This document shows, piece after piece, positions 2,912 through 11,084 of a DNA stretch of 11,171 bases. Each line of letters opens with the position of its first letter. The first letter of the stretch is position 1. A model generated the notes under the pieces. It made no database searches and was not told the origin of the DNA. It saw only the letters and a list, made by a program, of their open reading frames with translations. This DNA is from Cyclostephanos tholiformis. Taxonomy: Eukaryota; Bacillariophyta; Thalassiosirophyceae; Thalassiosirales; Thalassiosiraceae. The stretch spans positions 1 through 11,171 of the forward strand of contig JALLPB010001111.1 in the NCBI GenBank assembly GCA_036939975.1, written 5' to 3'. The position numbers were made by a program, and so were the translations under genes.

Positions 2912-3470
2912 AATACCTGCTGTAATATGACATCACCATGAATTCATAGACGTTTAATAAGATTGTGATAGCTTATTTGCATCATAATCAAAATTTATAA
3001 TTTCCTTTGCATCACTGCAGTGATTGTAGGCATCTGTTTGCATCACCAGTTGAAATAGTTATTCAATAACCTCACCAAAATATGATAACACCCATTGGGT
3101 AGGTCACATATTATCCTTCATTAAGTCGCACCATCTCTCCCCTCTCTGTGGCAATGTCCCAAATTGTATTGTACCACCTTATTCAATTACATCACCAAAA
3201 AAATTATTGATCTGTGGGCCTCGCTGTATTGTTTTACCATATCTATTAGCATCACCAAAAACAATTAATGATTTTTGAACCTCACCATATTAATTTTTGT
3301 AACTTTTTTAGCATCACCATCAAATTTGGGTATTAAGTAGCCTAACTAAATATAAATTGATGAATTATTAGCCTCACCGTATTAATAAAATAATTTGTCT
3401 GCATCACTATTTTGCTTATATATTTATCTATGCCTCATTAATAAATATTTGTAAATTTTAACAACCTCAT
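2900..3470 (+). repeat. Left subterminal array, ~30.5-bp period
   Basis: The motif CCTCACC or CATCACC, usually followed by A-rich sequence, recurs at 2900, 2931, 2980, 3010, 3041, 3070, about 3130, 3190, 3219, 3250, 3280, 3312, 3341, 3372, 3402, 3433 and 3465. From 3190 to 3465 the spacing is 29, 31, 30, 32, 29, 31, 30, 31 and 32 bp. Several units alternate between the CATCAC and CCTCAC forms. The intervening DNA is AT-rich and not conserved, so this is a phased array of short sites and not a classical satellite. I see no gene in 2912-3437. Confidence 0.8.
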
Positions 3471-4575
3471 GGTTTGTTCTATTTTTGCCATTGGCATCCA
3501 CATACACACAATATCCAGAATGAGGTGCTGGCCTGCAAATTCTTTTATTTTTCTCTGCAGGACCAGGTTCTTTGATTTGAGATCTGCTACATTGTCATTA
3601 TCCTCCCCATCATCATACTCATCCCACATATTCATGTAATTGTCAAAAATCTCATCATCAACAATAACGGTCTTGAACTTGATATGATAACCGATGTGCC
3701 TTGATCATTAAGGTTTCTGAGGGCAAGTTCAAATCAAGCCACCTGCATCGTGTACATCTTGATTTCCTCAAACAGCTTATCAGTCTTCCGATTTCAGCCT
3801 CCTCCCTTTCACTATCCATTCTTTCTATATTCAACTTCATCTTCTCAATTATTTTAGAGCTCAAGTGAGCCACCGCCTCAGCGGTTTTATCTTGAGATCT
3901 CTCTGCCTTACCATCGATGGATAATCGGTCAGTGCCTTGGAAGCAAGCATGAAACTCAAATCCCCCCTGTGAGAGGATGATTGAGGATCATTGGCTGCAA
4001 TGTTCACATCAGCCAATTTAGAATGATGTTACAACCCCGCACCATTGACTCCACTGGCTGCAAGACATAGTCGATCAATCTTGCCATCCCTCAACTCAAG
4101 ATCCAATTCGAGTTTTGTGGTCCATTCCCTTGCAATGATGGCGTCATTCTTGGACAAATCTGCCACCAATTTGAGGTTATCGAATTTTTGCCATAGGTTG
4201 TCGTAACATTCAGCATCATTCAATATTACCATCCCTCTTGCTCAAAGCACAATCTCTTGACCTCAGATGCCATCCTAGACACGGTCCGCAGCAGCTGCAT
4301 TGGACAGGTAGGAGGATCTCTTTTGCAATTCCCTCCTCCATCTACCCTGATGCTTTTCGAGTTCCAGGACAGCAGCATTCAACACGATGTTGTTCATGAT
4401 TCGGTAAGCATGAGGATGTCATCCAATGTGGCCTCCAGCTCCCTCTTGAGATGACACACCTCCCCTCTATTCTCATGCAGGTTGATCAAAACATCCTCGC
4501 ATTCCTCTTCCCCCCTCCCCAATTTTGCCAGTTCATTGTTGTCTCCAAAGACAATGACAATGACATCTACAACAA
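3440..4575 (-). pseudogene. Decayed coiled-coil protein gene (captured?)
   Basis: On the minus strand, successive pieces in different frames make a charged, helix-rich protein. In order they are: NNELAKLGRGEEECEDVL and HLKRELEATLDDI (about 4575-4400); LNAAVLELEKHQGRWRREL (about 4390-4300); ECYDNLWQKFDNLKLVADL to LELDLELRDGKIDRL (4232-4050), ending in a TAA at 4029-4031 but open beyond it in the same frame; DKTAEAVAHLSSKIIEKMK to RMDSEREEAEIGR (about 3895-3770); LFEEIKMYTMQVA; and FKTVIVDDEIFDNYMNMWDE to ADLKSKNLVLQRKIKEF (about 3690-3530). Heptad-like Leu/Ile spacing suggests coiled coil. The upstream end appears to continue on the far side of the copia insertion (10389-10445). I do not recognise the protein. 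Position between two subterminal arrays suggests cargo captured by the TIR element. Confidence 0.5.
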
Positions 4576-4590
4576 ATGCAACAGTGATGA

Positions 4591-4595
4591 TTGAT
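4591..4595. repeat. Target-site duplication, left copy
   Basis: TTGAT directly precedes the 5' LTR and is repeated exactly after the 3' LTR at 10384-10388. Five bases is the usual duplication for Ty1/copia integration. Confidence 0.9.
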
Positions 4596-4864
4596 AGTTG
4601 GAACTCTCCCTAAAGGGTACGTACGTAATGTGCCCTTACCTAGAGTACAGAGACTCCAGAGTGCCATGTCACGACAGGTACATAAAATACCTGATTACTA
4701 CAAAGGACCATATGGAGTTCCTACATATGATACTCCTCGTAGATTAGTTGAGAGAGCAGCATATGCATTCTCACCCGCATGGTATGCCATTGCCATTAAT
4801 ACTTAGAACAACCTTTTGTCTAACAGTTAATGGTAATTGCATTGCCATTTAGTTGCTCTCAACA
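4596..4864 (+). repeat. 5' LTR of copia element
   Basis: The LTR runs from AGTTGGAACTCTCC to GCTCTCAACA. The 3' copy starts with canonical TGTTG, so the first base here has mutated T to A; CAACA at the end is the inverted partner. Alignment with 10115-10383 is gap-free, with 252 of 269 matches. The reading frame that encodes the polyprotein tail in the 3' LTR is still open here (TLPKGYVRNVPLPRV to about 4806), but lacks an upstream coding region. Confidence 0.93.
4799..4809 (+). promoter_or_regulatory. Candidate self-primer / R start in LTR
   Basis: ATACTTAGAAC inside the LTR is perfectly complementary to the 11 bases immediately after the LTR (4865-4875). In Tf1-type elements the first 11 nucleotides of the transcript pair with the primer-binding site and are cleaved off as primer. 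If that holds here, transcription would start at about 4799. No convincing TATA box is visible at the right distance; ATATGCAT at 4761 is about 38 bp upstream. The 11-mer is unchanged in the 3' LTR at 10318-10328. Confidence 0.5.
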
Positions 4865-4875
4865 GTTCTAAGTAT
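4865..4875 (+). promoter_or_regulatory. Primer-binding site, LTR-complementary
   Basis: GTTCTAAGTAT starts at the first base after the 5' LTR, the position of a primer-binding site. It does not start with TGG, so it is not complementary to the CCA end of a tRNA. It is complementary to 4799-4809, and pairing fails at the next base on both sides, so the helix is exactly 11 bp and ends at the LTR border. An alternative is priming by an internal tRNA fragment, as in Drosophila copia. Confidence 0.55.
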
Positions 4876-4999: not shown

Positions 5000-6592
5000 A
5001 TGGGCATAACGATCACTATGGAAGAAGTGGCAGGCCTCCTTGGTCCAACCCTTCCTTCCACTAACCCTAGAACTAACTTCAAAAATATTCAACCCCTTTG
5101 CCAACACATTGAGCAAGCACTTCAAACTCTTCCATGCCCCCAGAGTATTCATCTTGGGTGGAAGGGCCTTGTCATGTCCCATGGCATGTATGCTTTGTTA
5201 ACACCTAACCCATTCTGCTGTCCCAATGATCCTGGCCCCACAGCAATATATACAAGGAATGACCCTGCAGACATGACCCCATTAACATGTGCAGAACAAG
5301 CATCCATAGACACTGCCTTTGCACGTGAACGACATTATTACCAGTCACTTATTAACATCGAACAAGCGTGTTTCATTGCACTCAATGCAAACATTGACAA
5401 TGCTTTCAAGGTTAGTAACATACCCACCATAGTTGGGTGGCATGCAGGCATGGAGACACGTGATATCCTTGACCAATTGTCTCAGACGTATGGCCAACCC
5501 ATGCCTGCAGCATTGGAAATAAACAATGCTACCTTTTGCGGCCCGTATTCCGCAGCAGATGCCCCCAAAGTACTCTTCCGATGCGTCAAAAATTGTGCAG
5601 AAATTGCAATCCTAGGGAATAACCCCTACACGGATAAGCAGTTGATAAATAATGCTATTTGCCTCCTCCTAACAATGGGCCTGTACCTCAGGGCCTTCAA
5701 AGAATGAGACCGTTCTCCTACCAGCAGCACAGACCTGGATTGAATTGCATTGACTAATTCAAGAATCATTCCAAAGGAGGTTAAATGCCATGGCTCTTAC
5801 AGCAGGAGGACACGGTTATGCCCCCCTGCATTTCATCAAAATGCATTCAGTATTCTAGGCACAACTGACAGCAATGATGAAGAATTGATTGCCAACACAA
5901 TTGCAACACAAGTTGCTGCTCTGACATATCAGAGCCAATTGACACTATCAACCACAGCCACAACAGGGCAGCATCAAGAAATCCAACTGGCCCAACTCAC
6001 CACCACACAAGAGGCCCAGCATGCGACAATGCATCAATTGATTGAGAGTTTGAATGCCATTGCATTCAACATCAGTGATATGGGACGTGGAATTGCCCAC
6101 TTTGGTGGTCATGGAAATGGCTGGGGACATAACCAGCACGGAGGCCATGGCTGCGGCCATGGCCCACCATTCAGGGGGGATGCTTATAATAGCAGTACGT
6201 TTCCCTTGACTGTTATGCACCCTGGCAATGCACAACATACAACAATCCCTTGACAATTTCAAGGAAATGCTCCAAGCAATATACCTGCATATTGTCTGAC
6301 TCCTCCAAATCTGGGCAGTGGAGGTTTCAGTCCCCCAGGCATCTCCCAAGGAAGCATAGTCCCCATAGGATACCCACGTGCCCCTGCCGGGCCAGCTAAT
6401 CAAGTACAACATCAACCATACTCCAAAGTGATAAAATGGTATTCCAATTGGAATAAATGCTACTTGTGTGGATTTGATGTCACTGATGGCCACACCAGTA
6501 TACAGTGCCCACCCCACCAGTGCAAAGCATCACACCAGATCACGTTCAATTGCCAGAATGCACAACAATTCATTGACCTCGGACATCCCTAG
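5000..6592 (+). pseudogene. Copia Gag, disrupted
   Basis: Gag starts at ATG 5000 (MGITITMEEVAGLLGPTLP), about 125 bp downstream of the putative primer-binding site. The first 235 codons contain CPQSIHLGWKGLVMSHGMYA and NDPGP, then IVGWHAGMETRDILDQL and QLINNAICLLLTMGLY. TGA at 5705-5707 replaces what is probably Trp before DR. The frame then shifts for about 100 bp (LPAAQTWIELH, QRRLNAMALTAGGHGYAP, with TGA at 5751-5753) and returns near 5825. A His/Gly-rich tract lies at 6098-6170. TGA at 6251-6253 is followed in frame by a zinc knuckle CX2CX7HX4C at 6458-6508, wider than the classical CX2CX4HX4C. The frame ends at 6590-6592. Gag would form particles around element RNA; this copy cannot make a full protein. 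Confidence 0.85.
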
Positions 6593-7059
6593 GCATGAGA
6601 TGCAATTCCCTGCAAACATGTGATGGGGAGGGGCAGCAAATAGGAGCGTAGCATTTAAACATGTAAACCCATTTTATGTAAACCCAGTCGACTCGTTGTA
6701 CCCCACCAAAAAGTGCTTTACTTGTGTATATGACATGGATGATGACAACATCACCATCCCCACATCAAACACTATACAAATGACACATCAAACGTGACCA
6801 CCATATCCAACTGAATATGACAACCGGGGTTGTTCAACTCCCCACAGAACATGCAATTGCAGATTCTGGGGCTACACAAATTTTTGTCATGGAAGGAATC
6901 CCTGTCATAAACAAACACCCAACTATGCAACCACTTAAAGTTGCACTGGCAGATGGATGCCAGGTGATGTCCACACACATGTGCGACATTCATATAGATG
7001 GCCTCCCAGTAACATTAACTGGGCACATCATTCTTGACCTCTCCATCGCCTCACTTTTT
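6593..7059 (+). pseudogene. Copia aspartic protease, truncated
   Basis: After a linker (HVNPFYVNPVDSLYPTKK, then DMDDDNITIPTSNT, in other frames) the frame from about 6817 reads AIADSGATQIFVMEG. It contains the DSGA active-site motif, then GHIILDLSIASLF, a typical C-terminal strand of this protease. The protease cuts the Gag-Pol polyprotein. The sequence breaks right after ASLF (about 7056): the following residues, GENVCFLIVYH, belong to integrase, so the protease C-terminus was lost in a deletion. Confidence 0.8.
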
Positions 7060-7790
7060 GGGGAAAATGTGTGTTTCCTCATTGTATATCACTAAGAAAC
7101 CAATGCCATCTTGGCAGCGCCAATCCCAAACTTTACCTATCCTTACAGCATTTCAGCACCAATTCGAGTTGCTAGAATCCAAAGGCCACAAATTGTGCCT
7201 CAATATAATAGATAATCAGGTAAGCACAGTCATCAAACAATAACAATATCTCACCACAAAACAATGTCAGAATATGCTCATCGAGCCAAATAATCACAGG
7301 TTCAATGTGGCAGAATGAGCCATTCAAACTTTTAAATCGCACTTGCCACAACAGATAGTGATTTCCTGCTACAATTGTTGGATCGACTTACCCCGCAAGT
7401 TGTCACAACTTTGAATATGCTATGGCCATCAAGAATCAATCCCACCATGTCTGCCTATGAGGCCGTACATGGCCCTTACAATTGGAATTGATTTCTGCTT
7501 GCCCTCCCAGGATGCAAGGCAGTTATATATGAGTACCCTGTAGCACGAGGTTCATGGGCTAGCCATGGTACTGATGCATGGTACATGAGACCATCCCTCG
7601 ATCACTACCATTGCAACCATTACTTTGTACCCAAACATGCGCATACCAAATCTTGGGATCAGCTGAGCTGTTCCCACAACACTGCCAAGTCCCTTTCCTC
7701 CTGTGGAATGAGAACTTACAGGAAGTGATTAATGAATTACATACAACGCTCAGCATGTTTCTTACCTCACAAACGTCTTCCTACGGTTAC
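7060..7790 (+). pseudogene. Copia integrase, N-terminal half deleted
   Basis: The reading begins mid-core: FLIVYH, stop TAA at 7093-7095, ETNAILAAPI in the same frame. The frame then moves by one at about 7130: FELLESKGHKLCLNIIDNQ (second catalytic Asp), TAA at 7241-7243, IEPNNHRFNVAE (catalytic Glu) and TGA at 7316-7318. It moves again at about 7342: LATTDSDF, LTPQVVTTLNMLWPSRINP, YNWN, TGA at 7489-7491, PGCKAVIYE, GSWASHGTDAWYMRPS. Another shift leads to GSAELFPQHCQVP. The Asp-Glu spacing is about 32 residues, close to the family's 35. The zinc-binding HHCC region and the first catalytic Asp are absent, so the protein could not join DNA strands. Confidence 0.8.
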
Positions 7791-8400
7791 AAACACAACA
7801 ACCCAATGAGCCAACTTGAACTTGAACATTGACAGCCCCTACACAGGCATGGATGTTGCCACAAGAGGACATTCAATTACACCCTTATGTCTCACCTTCC
7901 GCATTACAAAGTCCCCCCCTGGAACAAAGGGTGATGCTCCCTTTCACCCCTATCCCATGAATCATGGATGCACCATCCATTATGCATGCCCCCAATATAA
8001 CAGCAAAGTCATGTTTAAAAACAACAAAGCGAATGCACGCAAGATGCACATGCAACAATGTGCCAGGTGGAGTCCCCACAATCACTACATCAGCACCACA
8101 GCAGTAAATCCCCCTTATGCCTCCACCACCTGGAACCATGCCTCCACGCTGGTCCCACCGAAAAGCCACATCTGTATTGGCTACACCTCCTGGTGCCAAT
8201 GCAACAAATATACCTCAAGTACATTTCCAACCAAGCCAATTAGGAATGTGAAACAACAACATTATCTCACAAGAGGCGATAAACTTTGTTTCAGAATGCT
8301 TATGGGCCTACTCTACAGATTTTTTCATGCCAAAAAATCTAGAACAACATTCACCACCATCAAGCTTGGACCTACAGCAAATACCAATGCCCATGATTCA
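7791..8400 (+). pseudogene. Integrase-reverse transcriptase linker, degraded
   Basis: Copia polyproteins have a poorly conserved linker here. The longest open stretch (about 7816-8433) is rich in His, Asn, Thr and Pro and shows no recognisable motif; it may not even be the ancestral frame. The ancestral frame is recovered at about 8390 with the Pro/Thr-rich MIHPTTGKTISSYKRLM leading into reverse transcriptase. I see no independent gene. Confidence 0.4.
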
Positions 8401-9389
8401 TCCCACCACTGGCAAAACAATAAGCAGCTATAAAAGGCTGATGAGTGACCAAGCAACATCAGAAATATGGCAAACTGCATTCGGAGAGGATTTTGGGGGC
8501 AAGGCACAAGGTGACAATAAAACAGGCCAGAAAGGAACAAATTCAATATTTATCATGTTTCACAATGAGATACAATGAATCCTGGTCACTCAAACAGTTA
8601 CATATGCTCAAGTAGTCATGGATTTTTGCCCTCAAAAGTTGGATCCACATTGTATACTTGGAACCTCATTAATTACCCAGGTGGACTCTCAACATTCACA
8701 GCAGATCTCACCACATCAAAAACTGATGTGGAACAGTGTCCTCAGCACTGAAGGGGCAAAATACATGTGCTTAGACATCAAAATTTTTTACCTGTCGGCC
8801 CCCCTCGACCAGTACGAATACATGAAAATGCCAATTTCCTTGTTTCCAACATAGATCATAAAACAGTATGATTTAACGAAACACGAATCAAAGGGATTTA
8901 TTTACCTCAAAATGAGATGTGCTGTGTGGGGCCTCCCCCAAGCAGGCATCCTAGCCAACAAGCTACTTAGATGGCGACTCCTCCCACATGGGCATTACGC
9001 AATAACACACCTGGACTGTAGAAACACAAAATGAGGCTAATCTGTTTCACGTTAGTTGTCGAGACTTTGGTGTAAAATACTTGGGAAAGGAACATGCAGA
9101 TCATTTAATATGGTGCATTAAACAAAAATATGATCTCAGCAAAGACTGGAGCGGTGACCTCTACTGTGGTATAAAGTTACATTGGGACTATGACATGAGA
9201 ACGGTAGACCTATCCATGCCAGGATACATAAAAAAGGTCCTCCAGAAATACAAACATGACATGCCAGTGAAACCTCAACATTGCCCATATGCACTGGCCC
9301 CTAAACAATATGGCACAAAGGCAGAAGTCCCAATCCCAGTTGACATCTCTCCCAAGTTATCACTGGATGAAATAAAAGTCATACAATGA
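8401..9389 (+). pseudogene. Copia reverse transcriptase, catalytically dead
   Basis: One frame from about 8396 reads TSEIWQTAFGEDFGG, QGDNKTGQKGTN, stop TGA 8576-8578, VVMDFCPQKLDPH, SVLSTEGAKYMCLDIK (first catalytic Asp codon 8774-8776), FYLSAPLDQYEYMKMP, stop TAG 8852-8854, and AVWGLPQAGILANKLL. It then changes frame for PGL-stop-KHKMRLICFTLVV (TAG 9019-9021 where Trp is expected). The catalytic VDD should follow, but GTCGAGAC at 9058-9065 lacks one base, so the second Asp and DFGVKYLGKEHADHL continue in the next frame. That frame stays open to TGA 9387-9389 (GDLYCGIKLHWDY, MPGYIKKVLQKYKHDM). The enzyme would copy element RNA to cDNA; this copy cannot. Confidence 0.88.
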
Positions 9390-10325
9390 GTGATTGGAAG
9401 CATACTTTATTATGCCTGTGCTGTTGACATCACTGTCCTCATGGCGCTAAGCTCTATCGCAATCAAACAATCCAAGGGAACAAAAAACACGATGGCTCAA
9501 GCAAAACAATTACTTGACTATTTGGCCACTTACCCCGATGCGACCATCCATTTCCATGCATCGGATATGATCATGAACAAACACTCGAATGCATCATACT
9601 TATTGGAAATTTATGCCCGCAGCAGAGCATGCGGACACTTCTTCATGGGATGGTTGCCAAAAGAAGGAGACCCCATACTACTCAATGGTGCATTTTTTAC
9701 ATTATGTGCAATATTAAGCTTTGTCATGGCATCAGTGGCCAAGGCTGAGTTGGGTGCCCTCTTCCTTAATTGCAAAGAAGGCATGATTTCTTGGTTGACC
9801 CTCAAAGAATTGGGTCACCCTCAACCCAAAACCTCCATCCATTGTGACAATGCCACCACAGTTGAAATTACCAACAACACAGTGAAGCATCAACGTTCCC
9901 GAAGCATGGAAATGTGATATTTCAGGGTTTGTGATAAGATTGCCCATAACACATGTGATGTAAAATGGCATCCGGGACAAGAAAATTTAGCTGATTATCA
10001 GAGCAAACATCACCCCAGGGAACACCATACTGCTGTACGCCCATGGTATCTTCACGATAAAAATTCCCCCCTGGTACTCCCACGGATGATCAGACCTAGC
10101 ACTCTGAAAGGGTGTGTTGGAACTCTCCCTAAAGGTTACATACATAAGGTACCCTTACCTAGAGTACGGAGACTCCAGAGTGCCAAGTCACAACAGGTAC
10201 ATACAATACCTGATTACTACAAAGGACCATATGGAGTTCCTACATCTGATAATCCTCGTAGATTAGTTGAAAGAGCAGCATATGCATTTTCACCCACATG
10301 GCATGCCATTGCCATTAATACTTAG
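9390..10325 (+). pseudogene. Copia RNase H and C-terminal tail
   Basis: The frame reads VIGSILYYACAVDITVLMAL, AKQLLDYLATYPDATIHFHA, RSRACGHFFMGW, ASVAKAELGALFLNCKEG (catalytic Glu), IHCDNATTVE (catalytic Asp), RSRSMEM, TGA at 9915-9917, WHPGQENLADYQSKHHPRE and VRPWYLHDKNSPLVLPR. The residue expected to be the first catalytic Asp, in HS(D)ASYL, is Asn (AAT at 9588-9590). The frame then crosses into the 3' LTR and stays open for 70 more codons (VGTLPKGYIHKVPLPRV, DYYKGPYGVPT) to TAG at 10323-10325. GTG at 9390 is not a real start; the frame is continuous with reverse transcriptase apart from the stop. Confidence 0.87.
10106..10112 (+). promoter_or_regulatory. Possible polypurine tract
   Basis: GAAAGGG ends two bases before the 3' LTR start and could prime plus-strand synthesis. 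It is short and is constrained by also being coding (Lys-Gly), so the call is tentative. Confidence 0.4.
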
Positions 10326-10383
10326 AACAACCTTGTGTCTAACAGTTAATGGTAATTGCATTGCCATTTAGTTGCTCTCAACA
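10115..10383 (+). repeat. 3' LTR of copia element
   Basis: The LTR runs from TGTTGGAACTC to CTCTCAACA, with perfect TGTTG/CAACA inverted ends. It differs from the 5' LTR at 17 positions without gaps. Its first 211 bases encode the polyprotein C-terminal tail. The 11-mer ATACTTAGAAC (10318-10328) matches the putative self-primer and contains the TAG stop. Confidence 0.93.
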
Positions 10384-10388
10384 TTGAT
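10384..10388. repeat. Target-site duplication, right copy
   Basis: TTGAT follows the 3' LTR directly and matches 4591-4595 exactly, fixing both LTR borders. Confidence 0.9.
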
Positions 10389-10451: not shown

Positions 10452-10871
10452 GGTGAGTTAGAAAATTTTATGAAAGGTTCGGTGATGTTGAACAAAGGTA
10501 ATCTTTCTATTTAGTGAGGTTGATAGGTCAGTTGATTTATTTTAGTGAGGTTGACGAATTCTAATTTAGTGAGGTTCTTAGTAAATAATAATATGATGAC
10601 TGTTTAGTGAGGCTACTAGATACAACTTATTAAATATTCCAATTTGGTGAGGTTAACAAATTGCAATTTCTTTTTTAGTGATGTTTAAAATAACAAAATC
10701 CTAATTTGGTGAGCTTATAAAATAATATGATGACTGGTCAGTGAGGCTAATGGATAATAATAATTGATTTTAGTGAGGTTAATGAATTTTTTATTCCATT
10801 TTGGTGAGGTTAACAGAATGCATTTTCTTTATTAGTGAGGTTAATAAAAGCTTATGAACATAAATGGTGAC
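10452..10871 (-). repeat. Right subterminal array, ~31-bp period
   Basis: The motif (A/G)GTGAGG, commonly TTTAGTGAGGTT or TTTGGTGAGGTT, occurs at 10452, 10481, 10513, 10544, 10568, 10606, 10646, 10677, 10708, 10740, 10772, 10803, 10834 and 10866. The last eight starts are 31, 31, 32, 32, 31, 31 and 32 bp apart. It is the reverse complement of the left-array motif, so the two arrays face each other. From 10872 to 11014 I see only AT-rich sequence with no gene. Confidence 0.85.
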
Positions 10872-11014
10872 ATTGAAAGACAGCAATGATATTGAAGTTC
10901 GAGGAATGCAAGGGTTAGGGTTGAGAGCTTGCTCCGCATCTTCTCCCACATCAGAAAATGAAATACAAAATGACCAGATTATGGTTTGATTTTAATTAGG
11001 TTATTAGGTTCTGA

Positions 11015-11084
11015 TTTTTGGTGAGGCTTGTAGATCAGTACAAACTTTAGTGTGGTCCATCAAATTGCTTTTTCATTAAATGTA
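11015..11084 (-). repeat. Right terminal inverted repeat
   Basis: Read on the minus strand it begins TACATTTAATGAAAAAG, contains ATTTGATGGACCACAC and TGATCTACA, and ends GCCTCACCAAAAA. It pairs with 2842-2911 at 61 of 70 positions. Confidence 0.85.

Follow-up and report, generated by a model that had tools for sequence, protein, structure and literature searches.

Covarying LTR and primer-binding sequences suggest self-priming in a copia-type retrotransposon lineage of a probable diatom

Which RNA primes the retrotransposon in the window (the whole stretch of DNA analysed, 11,171 nucleotides) is the question raised by the 11 bases that directly follow its 5' LTR. The sequence-only reading had taken these bases for the exact reverse complement of a segment inside the LTR and had proposed priming by the element's own RNA in the manner of Tf1. 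Sequence comparison confirmed the match, GTTCTAAGTAT (4865-4875) being the exact reverse complement of ATACTTAGAAC (4799-4809) over 11 bp. The window contains a single LTR retrotransposon, bounded on both sides by TTGAT target duplications, with the following parts.

4591-4595, + strand: target-site duplication TTGAT, left copy
4596-4864, + strand: 5' LTR, 269 bp, with first base A against T in the 3' LTR
4793-4799, + strand: CCATTAA, a (Y)CATTAA-like motif found just 5' of the primer in many relatives and absent in C2
4799-4809, + strand: putative self-primer sequence in the 5' LTR, from the sequence match
4804-4806, + strand: TAG within the primer, matching the codon at which the long pol frame of related copies stops
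4810-4823, + strand: conserved AACCTTTTGTCTAA 3' of the primer, able in copies of the window's subfamily to form an alternative hairpin with it
4865-4875, + strand: putative primer binding site (PBS) adjoining the LTR end, from the sequence match
5000-6589, + strand: gag region, broken (tblastn, 50% identical to the gag of C1395; ORFs)
6693-10325, + strand: pol region, broken, in several frames (tblastn with the pol of C1395, matching 6693-10322; U3 frame)
10104-10114, + strand: polypurine-tract-like CTGAAAGGGTG directly 5' of the 3' LTR, named by position
10115-10383, + strand: 3' LTR, 269 bp
10318-10328, + strand: second, exact occurrence of the primer 11-mer, within the 3' LTR
10384-10388, + strand: target-site duplication TTGAT, right copy

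Apart from the changed first base of the 5' LTR, the TG...CA LTR ends and a 5-bp target duplication were found; the two LTRs agree at 252 of 269 bases, and this copy of a copia-type LTR retrotransposon is old and broken. The last part of its pol continues through the U3 of the 3' LTR as far as the TAG of the primer copy. A Pfam search with five single ORFs of the window returned nothing useful. The window also carries two inverted arms of 70 nt (2842-2911 and 11015-11084, 87% complementary), inward of which CTCACC/GGTGAG repeats are numerous (about 3000-3480 and 10500-11080), and from this layout the copia copy seems to lie within a larger inverted-repeat element. Nested palindromes with the core AACTTCGAAGTT are repeated at 901-1049.

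The assignment to Ty1/copia made by the sequence-only reading is supported by the domain order of a relative and by mostly weak RVT_2 matches. The relative P0083, which shares 53% identity with the C1395 pol and covers 99% of the 501-residue query, contains an Asp protease (66-111, below cut-off), an SH3_retrovirus domain (482-539, over cut-off), which we take to belong to the integrase, and RVT_2 (935-1097, below cut-off), and thus has the copia order of protease, integrase and reverse transcriptase (RT); an integrase after the RT, the arrangement of the Tf1/sushi group, was not seen in the domain order of the relatives. RVT_2 was matched at E 0.01 or less by 12 of 18 aligned pols (best 2.4e-8), most of the matches displayed lying under the curated cut-off; C1407 was over the cut-off, C1169 below it, and C1395 had no match. 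Protein relatives numbered 1462, and among the 120 listed the labelled ones were mainly from diatoms: Cyclotella meneghiniana, Skeletonema menzelii, Skeletonema dohrnii and, once, Alexandrium tamarense were named among the matches listed, and many more of these carry CCRYP labels, presumably standing for Cyclotella cryptica. These labels suggest that the host is probably a diatom.

The PBS arm is placed at the first base 3' of the 5' LTR because the LTR borders are set by the LTR pair and the TTGAT flanks, so that the earlier observation of one end coinciding with the LTR border is borne out. When the PBS was held fixed and 200 LTR bases were shuffled with dinucleotides kept (n = 2000), one shuffle equalled the match of the window copy over 10 bp. 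The evidence from related copies, as judged by sequence comparison, is far stronger than this single-copy test.

Relatives were sought in the window's genome (an assembly of 25 Mb in 1566 contigs) and in public sources, and 23 LTR-PBS junctions were obtained, of which the window's genome supplied 22 and a public contig (L158) one. The LTR had 21 matches in the window's genome, including the window's own two. Ten 5' junctions of the subfamily were located by the PBS pattern, and 12 more distant ones in the same genome were found via gag similarity (nine) or LTR similarity (three), the stretch 5' of gag being examined for a junction in distant relatives. Outside the 23-junction set, the window's genome holds further copia candidates (151 RVT_2 matches; 82 and 134 gag matches). 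In two gag relatives no junction could be read: C1003, in which 801 bases contained no recognisable LTR, and C1435, which meets a contig end. Among one set of 14 stretches, C1197 and C1524 alone yielded junctions: C483, C847, C1272 and C111 (at 20550) had LTRs with no PBS behind them, no partner was found in C247, C893 and C226, one stretch in C1365 and two in C1541 met a contig end or showed no LTR start by motif search, and no LTR start was seen by motif search in C1095 and C395. A PBS-like word also follows CAACA at three more sites, where neither a partner nor such an LTR was present.

In the public sources, the scan of genome contigs gave one relative, L158 (JAAELC010000737.1); no relatives were found among viral contigs, searched by protein and by alignment, or among plasmids and phages. 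A search of the viral contigs with the 16-mer CAACAGTTCTAAGTAT returned 45 stretches, which were rejected as relatives and taken as chance matches, none of the 45 having an LTR partner within 400 bases. L158, 3.7 kb long and binned with a Gammaproteobacteria MAG, carries a copia element resembling the diatom ones and is probably foreign DNA in that bin; its order of pol, LTR and gag may alternatively come from a tandem or circular form. Its LTR site is TACGTAGCAC, with GTGCTACG after the putative LTR-end CA; 8 bp pair, followed by a one-base bulge and then, by eye, further pairing, the LTR end being taken from one LTR only. As side observations, C111 contains two LTRs of one subfamily with the identical left flank GCAACAATTGCCA, L089 (20550-21100) and L100 (8600-9450), of which one is followed by a PBS and gag and the other, at 20550, is without a PBS, and L082 (C1197:4700-5400) shows a tandem arrangement with one LTR in common, placed after a pol end and before a new PBS with gag.

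Across the set, primer sequences range from TACTTAGAAC to ATCTAATCAC. In the window's subfamily, six of the eight readable LTR sites pair over all 11 bp, one includes a G-U pair and one a mismatch; at the two other subfamily junctions, the LTR site was deleted (C293) or cut off at a contig end (C1427). Individual copies pair as follows.

C1436: primer TAATTAGAAC, PBS GTTCTAATTA, 10 bp, errorless
C1524: primer AGATTAGAAC, PBS GTTCTAATCT, 10 bp, errorless
C1197: primer TTATCAGAAC, PBS GTTCTGATAA, 10 bp, errorless
C184: primer TCAATAGAAC, PBS GTTCTATTGA, 10 bp, errorless
C111: primer TTAATAGAAC, PBS GTTCTATTGA, one G-U
C1407: primer CTTTAGCAATGTC, PBS GACATTGCTAAAG, 13 bp, errorless
C2: primer ATCTAATCAC, PBS GTGATTAGAT, 10 bp, errorless
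C1315: 12 bp paired
C536: 12 bp paired, one G-U among them
C1542: 12 of 13 paired, one mismatch
C1169: 8 bp, then a mismatch (33 of 2000 shuffles as good)
C651: mismatch within 10 bp (48 of 2000 shuffles as good)
C838: 9 of 10 paired, one a G-U, with a mismatch within 10 bp (90 of 2000 shuffles as good)
C962: 8 of 10 paired, one a G-U, at a site placed by the flanking motif; the automatic search picked a different site at chance level (1144 of 2000 shuffles)

The pairing in the window ends after 11 bp, as the sequence-only reading had stated; as a general rule this length does not hold, relatives pairing over 10, 12 or 13 bp, and the clade as a whole spans 10-13 bp. The LTR site lies 25-58 bases 5' of the LTR end. 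In all 15 distinct rows of the comparison below, the stem begins immediately 3' of the CA that ends the LTR. For the window, C1168, C1395, C2 and C1169, a second LTR confirms this end, and in C1436, C1524, C1197, C184 and C111 the LTR ends are as in the window's LTR (TGTTGG...CAACA). For C1407, C838, C962 and L158, the border was set with the aid of the match itself; the C1407 and C838 stretches showed no second LTR. In C1395 both gag and pol are open and the two LTRs show no difference over 279 bp, indicating that the feature is present in a young copy; a target duplication was absent there.

For the covariation analysis, C293 and C1427 were omitted together with C1108, in which a PBS-like sequence was present and no partner was found in the preceding LTR piece. 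The remaining 20 junctions gave 15 distinct primer/PBS rows with 10 pair positions, all rows but one coming from one genome. Results revealed that 142 of the 150 cells were paired (138 Watson-Crick), against a mean of 94.0 and a maximum of 119 when the PBSs were re-dealt among the rows, and that 40 cells were changed on both arms, compared with 10.0 expected (re-deal maximum 25); neither value was reached in 2000 re-deals. These re-deal figures are not probabilities, because the rows share descent. Double changes occurred at nine of the 10 pair positions, a less decisive measure that 68 of 2000 re-deals matched. A restricted set of 11 distinct rows, in which the border was found independently of the match, gave 107 of 110 paired cells (re-deal mean 76.3, maximum 95; 0/2000) and 24 double-change cells (mean 5.8, maximum 18; 0/2000), with double changes at eight positions, which is not decisive (73/2000 re-deals reach as many). 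Moreover, among nine primer types from one genome, every LTR scored highest with its own PBS (own-PBS mean 19.0, other-PBS mean 10.8, top other 16, maximum 20), and common letters alone would not be expected to produce this best fit of every LTR to its own PBS. The comparison of the two arms in related copies, which the sequence-only reading had put forward as its check, was therefore passed, and the aligned arms show that LTR-PBS complementarity has been kept through compensating changes in families whose letters are mostly different.

Folding of the RNA was in line with this pairing when the fold was started at the primer, the mean primer-PBS probability being 0.87-0.99 in 10 of the 12 junctions; C1542 reached 0.65 and C2, for which another structure was preferred, 0.14. 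Adding 12 upstream bases lowered the pairing in the window (0.16), C1168 (0.34), C994 (0.53), C1395 (0.74) and C1436 (0.77), and left it in place in C628 (0.93), C1197 (0.98), C1524 (0.94), C184 (0.96) and C1407 (1.00). An LTR hairpin that encloses the primer (window 4784-4841) competes with the primer-PBS pairing; its shuffle z was -1.9 to -7.2 in 11 of 18 rows (eight of the window's subfamily, C1436, C1524 and C1197) and above -1 in the remaining seven, more distant rows. If transcripts begin at the primer, the full hairpin would be possible only in the 3' LTR, where it might mask the second primer copy; this is offered as a suggestion only. Folding also predicted stems within the loop between primer and PBS, and a further RNA structure in Tf1-type self-priming, the U5-IR stem-loop, was reportedly described by Lin and Levin in 1998. 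A second, crossing helix (GTCTAAT in the LTR with ATTAGAC after the PBS) was dropped, having been seen by eye in C1395, C628 and C651 only.

The primer in the window's subfamily also overlaps the end of a reading frame. The pol frame continues for 68-82 codons through U3, with the primer's TAG as its stop, in eight of the 14 LTRs tried (both of C1081, the 3' LTRs of C1168 and C1395, C30, C1287, C994 and C536); the 5' LTR of C1168, C651, C39 and C293 are interrupted, read on or lack the site, and no start motif for the U3 frame was found in C1264 and C123. In C1395, a single open pol frame spans the whole U3 stretch. Differences among all pairs of seven open U3 frames numbered 226, 237 and 371 by codon position, and this third-position excess makes U3 look coding. 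Thus, the LTR in the window's subfamily seems, from its pattern of substitutions, to code for the end of Pol (window 10115-10325).

Priming by the element's own RNA in the manner of Tf1 is very probably the best explanation of these data, favoured because the complementarity at the border is kept by compensating changes and no tRNA partner was found; the original proposal thereby gains support from the covarying arms and from the failure, so far, of the tRNA alternative. The PBS is complementary to the element's own LTR, with pairing that begins at the LTR/PBS border, and no tRNA matching the PBS was detected, the 11-mer search having covered the whole assembly, itself perhaps incomplete. In the mechanism proposed, the LTR segment in the RNA would fold back onto the PBS, the element's RNase H would cut the RNA just after the paired segment, and the freed 3' end, placed precisely at the LTR border, would prime minus-strand strong-stop DNA by analogy with Tf1, for which such priming is established. 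Judging from the geometry and the folding, the primer would coincide with the transcript start or lie a few bases from it. An LTR-derived primer might instead be supplied in trans by the RNA of another copy, with no fold-back in cis. Tests of pairing see cis and trans alike, but the short loops of 25-58 bases favour cis, as does the readiness with which primer-first folds form the helix in 10 of 12 junctions, and supply in trans seems rather improbable.

The 5' leaders of retroelements contain structures of the kind used in packaging, dimerisation and translation control, and covariation demonstrates pairing, not priming, so that the arms could form a stem for one of these other purposes with no role as a primer. 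The stem begins, however, at the first post-LTR base in 15 of 15 rows, with the border confirmed by a second LTR in five elements, and this is where the 3' end of a primer must sit to define the LTR border. With no PBS of tRNA type found at the position of the stem, a purpose other than priming appears distinctly unlikely.

Another possibility is that a host tRNA or tRNA half pairs with the PBS, as in other copia elements, and that the LTR match is coincidental. Half-tRNA priming does occur in copia lineages, according to passages of PMC6317226. The tRNA set available here (36 predictions from the assembly, some alike) is incomplete, with at least 30 matches and 63 of 584 candidates scored, and an intron-split tRNA gene would escape an 11-mer search. 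Nevertheless, the 26 exact copies of the 11-mer in the whole assembly (18 for the reversed pattern as control) comprise 22 in this element family and four elsewhere, none of them in any tRNA gene found, and ARAGORN detected no tRNA gene in 3 kb around each of the four outside copies. When 11 PBS types were compared with the 36 predictions, no run from the first PBS base exceeded six bases, shuffled PBSs averaging about five, and the longest match anywhere within 13 PBS bases was 6-8. None of the PBSs begins with TGG, which extends to the relatives what had been noted in the window, and the PBS varies between families along with the LTR, which a tRNA primer would not require. Complementarity of the PBS to an internal tRNA segment, a feature of tRNA-half-primed copia elements, was likewise not seen in this incomplete set. 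A tRNA or tRNA-half primer was therefore rejected on the location of the 11-mer copies and the short tRNA runs, within an incomplete tRNA set, and is considered highly unlikely; the comparison with predicted tRNAs that the sequence-only reading had proposed thus ended without a match. A chance match, or a duplication leftover in one copy, is practically negligible, for although one shuffle in 2000 does as well in the window alone, the pairing of 142/150 cells across 15 rows (107/110 in the restricted set) was never reached by re-dealing, in agreement with the earlier estimate that chance was an improbable cause.

Self-priming by the element's own RNA, the preferred reading, may be part of a wider picture, in which it is general and perhaps original in the diatom copia lineage, the letters of the two arms having been re-invented together repeatedly, and in which the window's branch has a U3 hairpin in the 3' LTR that would mask the primer, mutually exclusive with the 5' primer-PBS helix, and a pol stop inside the primer. 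This combination is conceivable from the sequences compared, yet we regard it as somewhat doubtful.

Among known systems, the elements resemble the Tf1/sushi group of Ty3/gypsy in having a PBS that adjoins the LTR and matches, as its complement, a short stretch within that LTR. In Tf1 of Schizosaccharomyces pombe, the primer is given as the first 11 bases of the RNA, with the RNase H cut between bases 11 and 12 (passages of PMC7175516), and the window likewise pairs over 11 bp. This agreement is probably incidental, because the length varies between families, the clade pairing over 10-13 bp rather than the 11 of Tf1; a further difference from Tf1 is the copia-type order, with the integrase SH3 domain before the RT in a close relative. 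In the sequence-only reading, self-priming was not known to have been described in Ty1/copia, which did not hold up: it has been predicted from sequence for plant elements of the TAR lineage, Houba and Osr-1 among them (PMC6317226, in part). The present elements are similar to the TAR lineage in being Ty1/copia elements with self-priming predicted from sequence, whereas TAR hosts are plants and the clade described here has diatom-labelled relatives and is weakly recognised by Pfam RVT_2. A resemblance to CoDi, the copia-type elements of diatoms, lies in the labelled protein relatives, mainly diatoms (Cyclotella, Skeletonema) among the matches listed; a text search of the CoDi publication (PMC2806351) found no instance of tRNA, primer binding or self-prim and a single one of PBS, as a buffer. 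Fungal GalEa copia elements also lack a tRNA-type PBS and have a conserved palindromic hairpin site instead, for which the authors, in the passages available, found no LTR partner (PMC5445492); the elements here, unlike GalEa, do have an LTR partner. Among the titles and abstracts listed in searches of open-licence papers on copia priming in diatoms or stramenopiles and on self-priming, none reported it for diatoms.

The annotation of Cyclotella cryptica retained only LTR elements with a detected PBS, as stated in part of PMC7466962, and annotation filtered in this way could lose elements such as these if PBS detection relies on tRNA matches. Self-priming in diatoms also bears on the idea, put forward in passages of PMC3601003, that a precursor of LTR elements was self-primed via a 5' hairpin and that tRNA priming came later. 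With nine primer types in one genome, in which LTR and PBS change together, the self-priming model becomes directly testable. Moreover, the finding points to a lineage distant from those of yeast, fish and plants in which priming would be independent of host tRNA.
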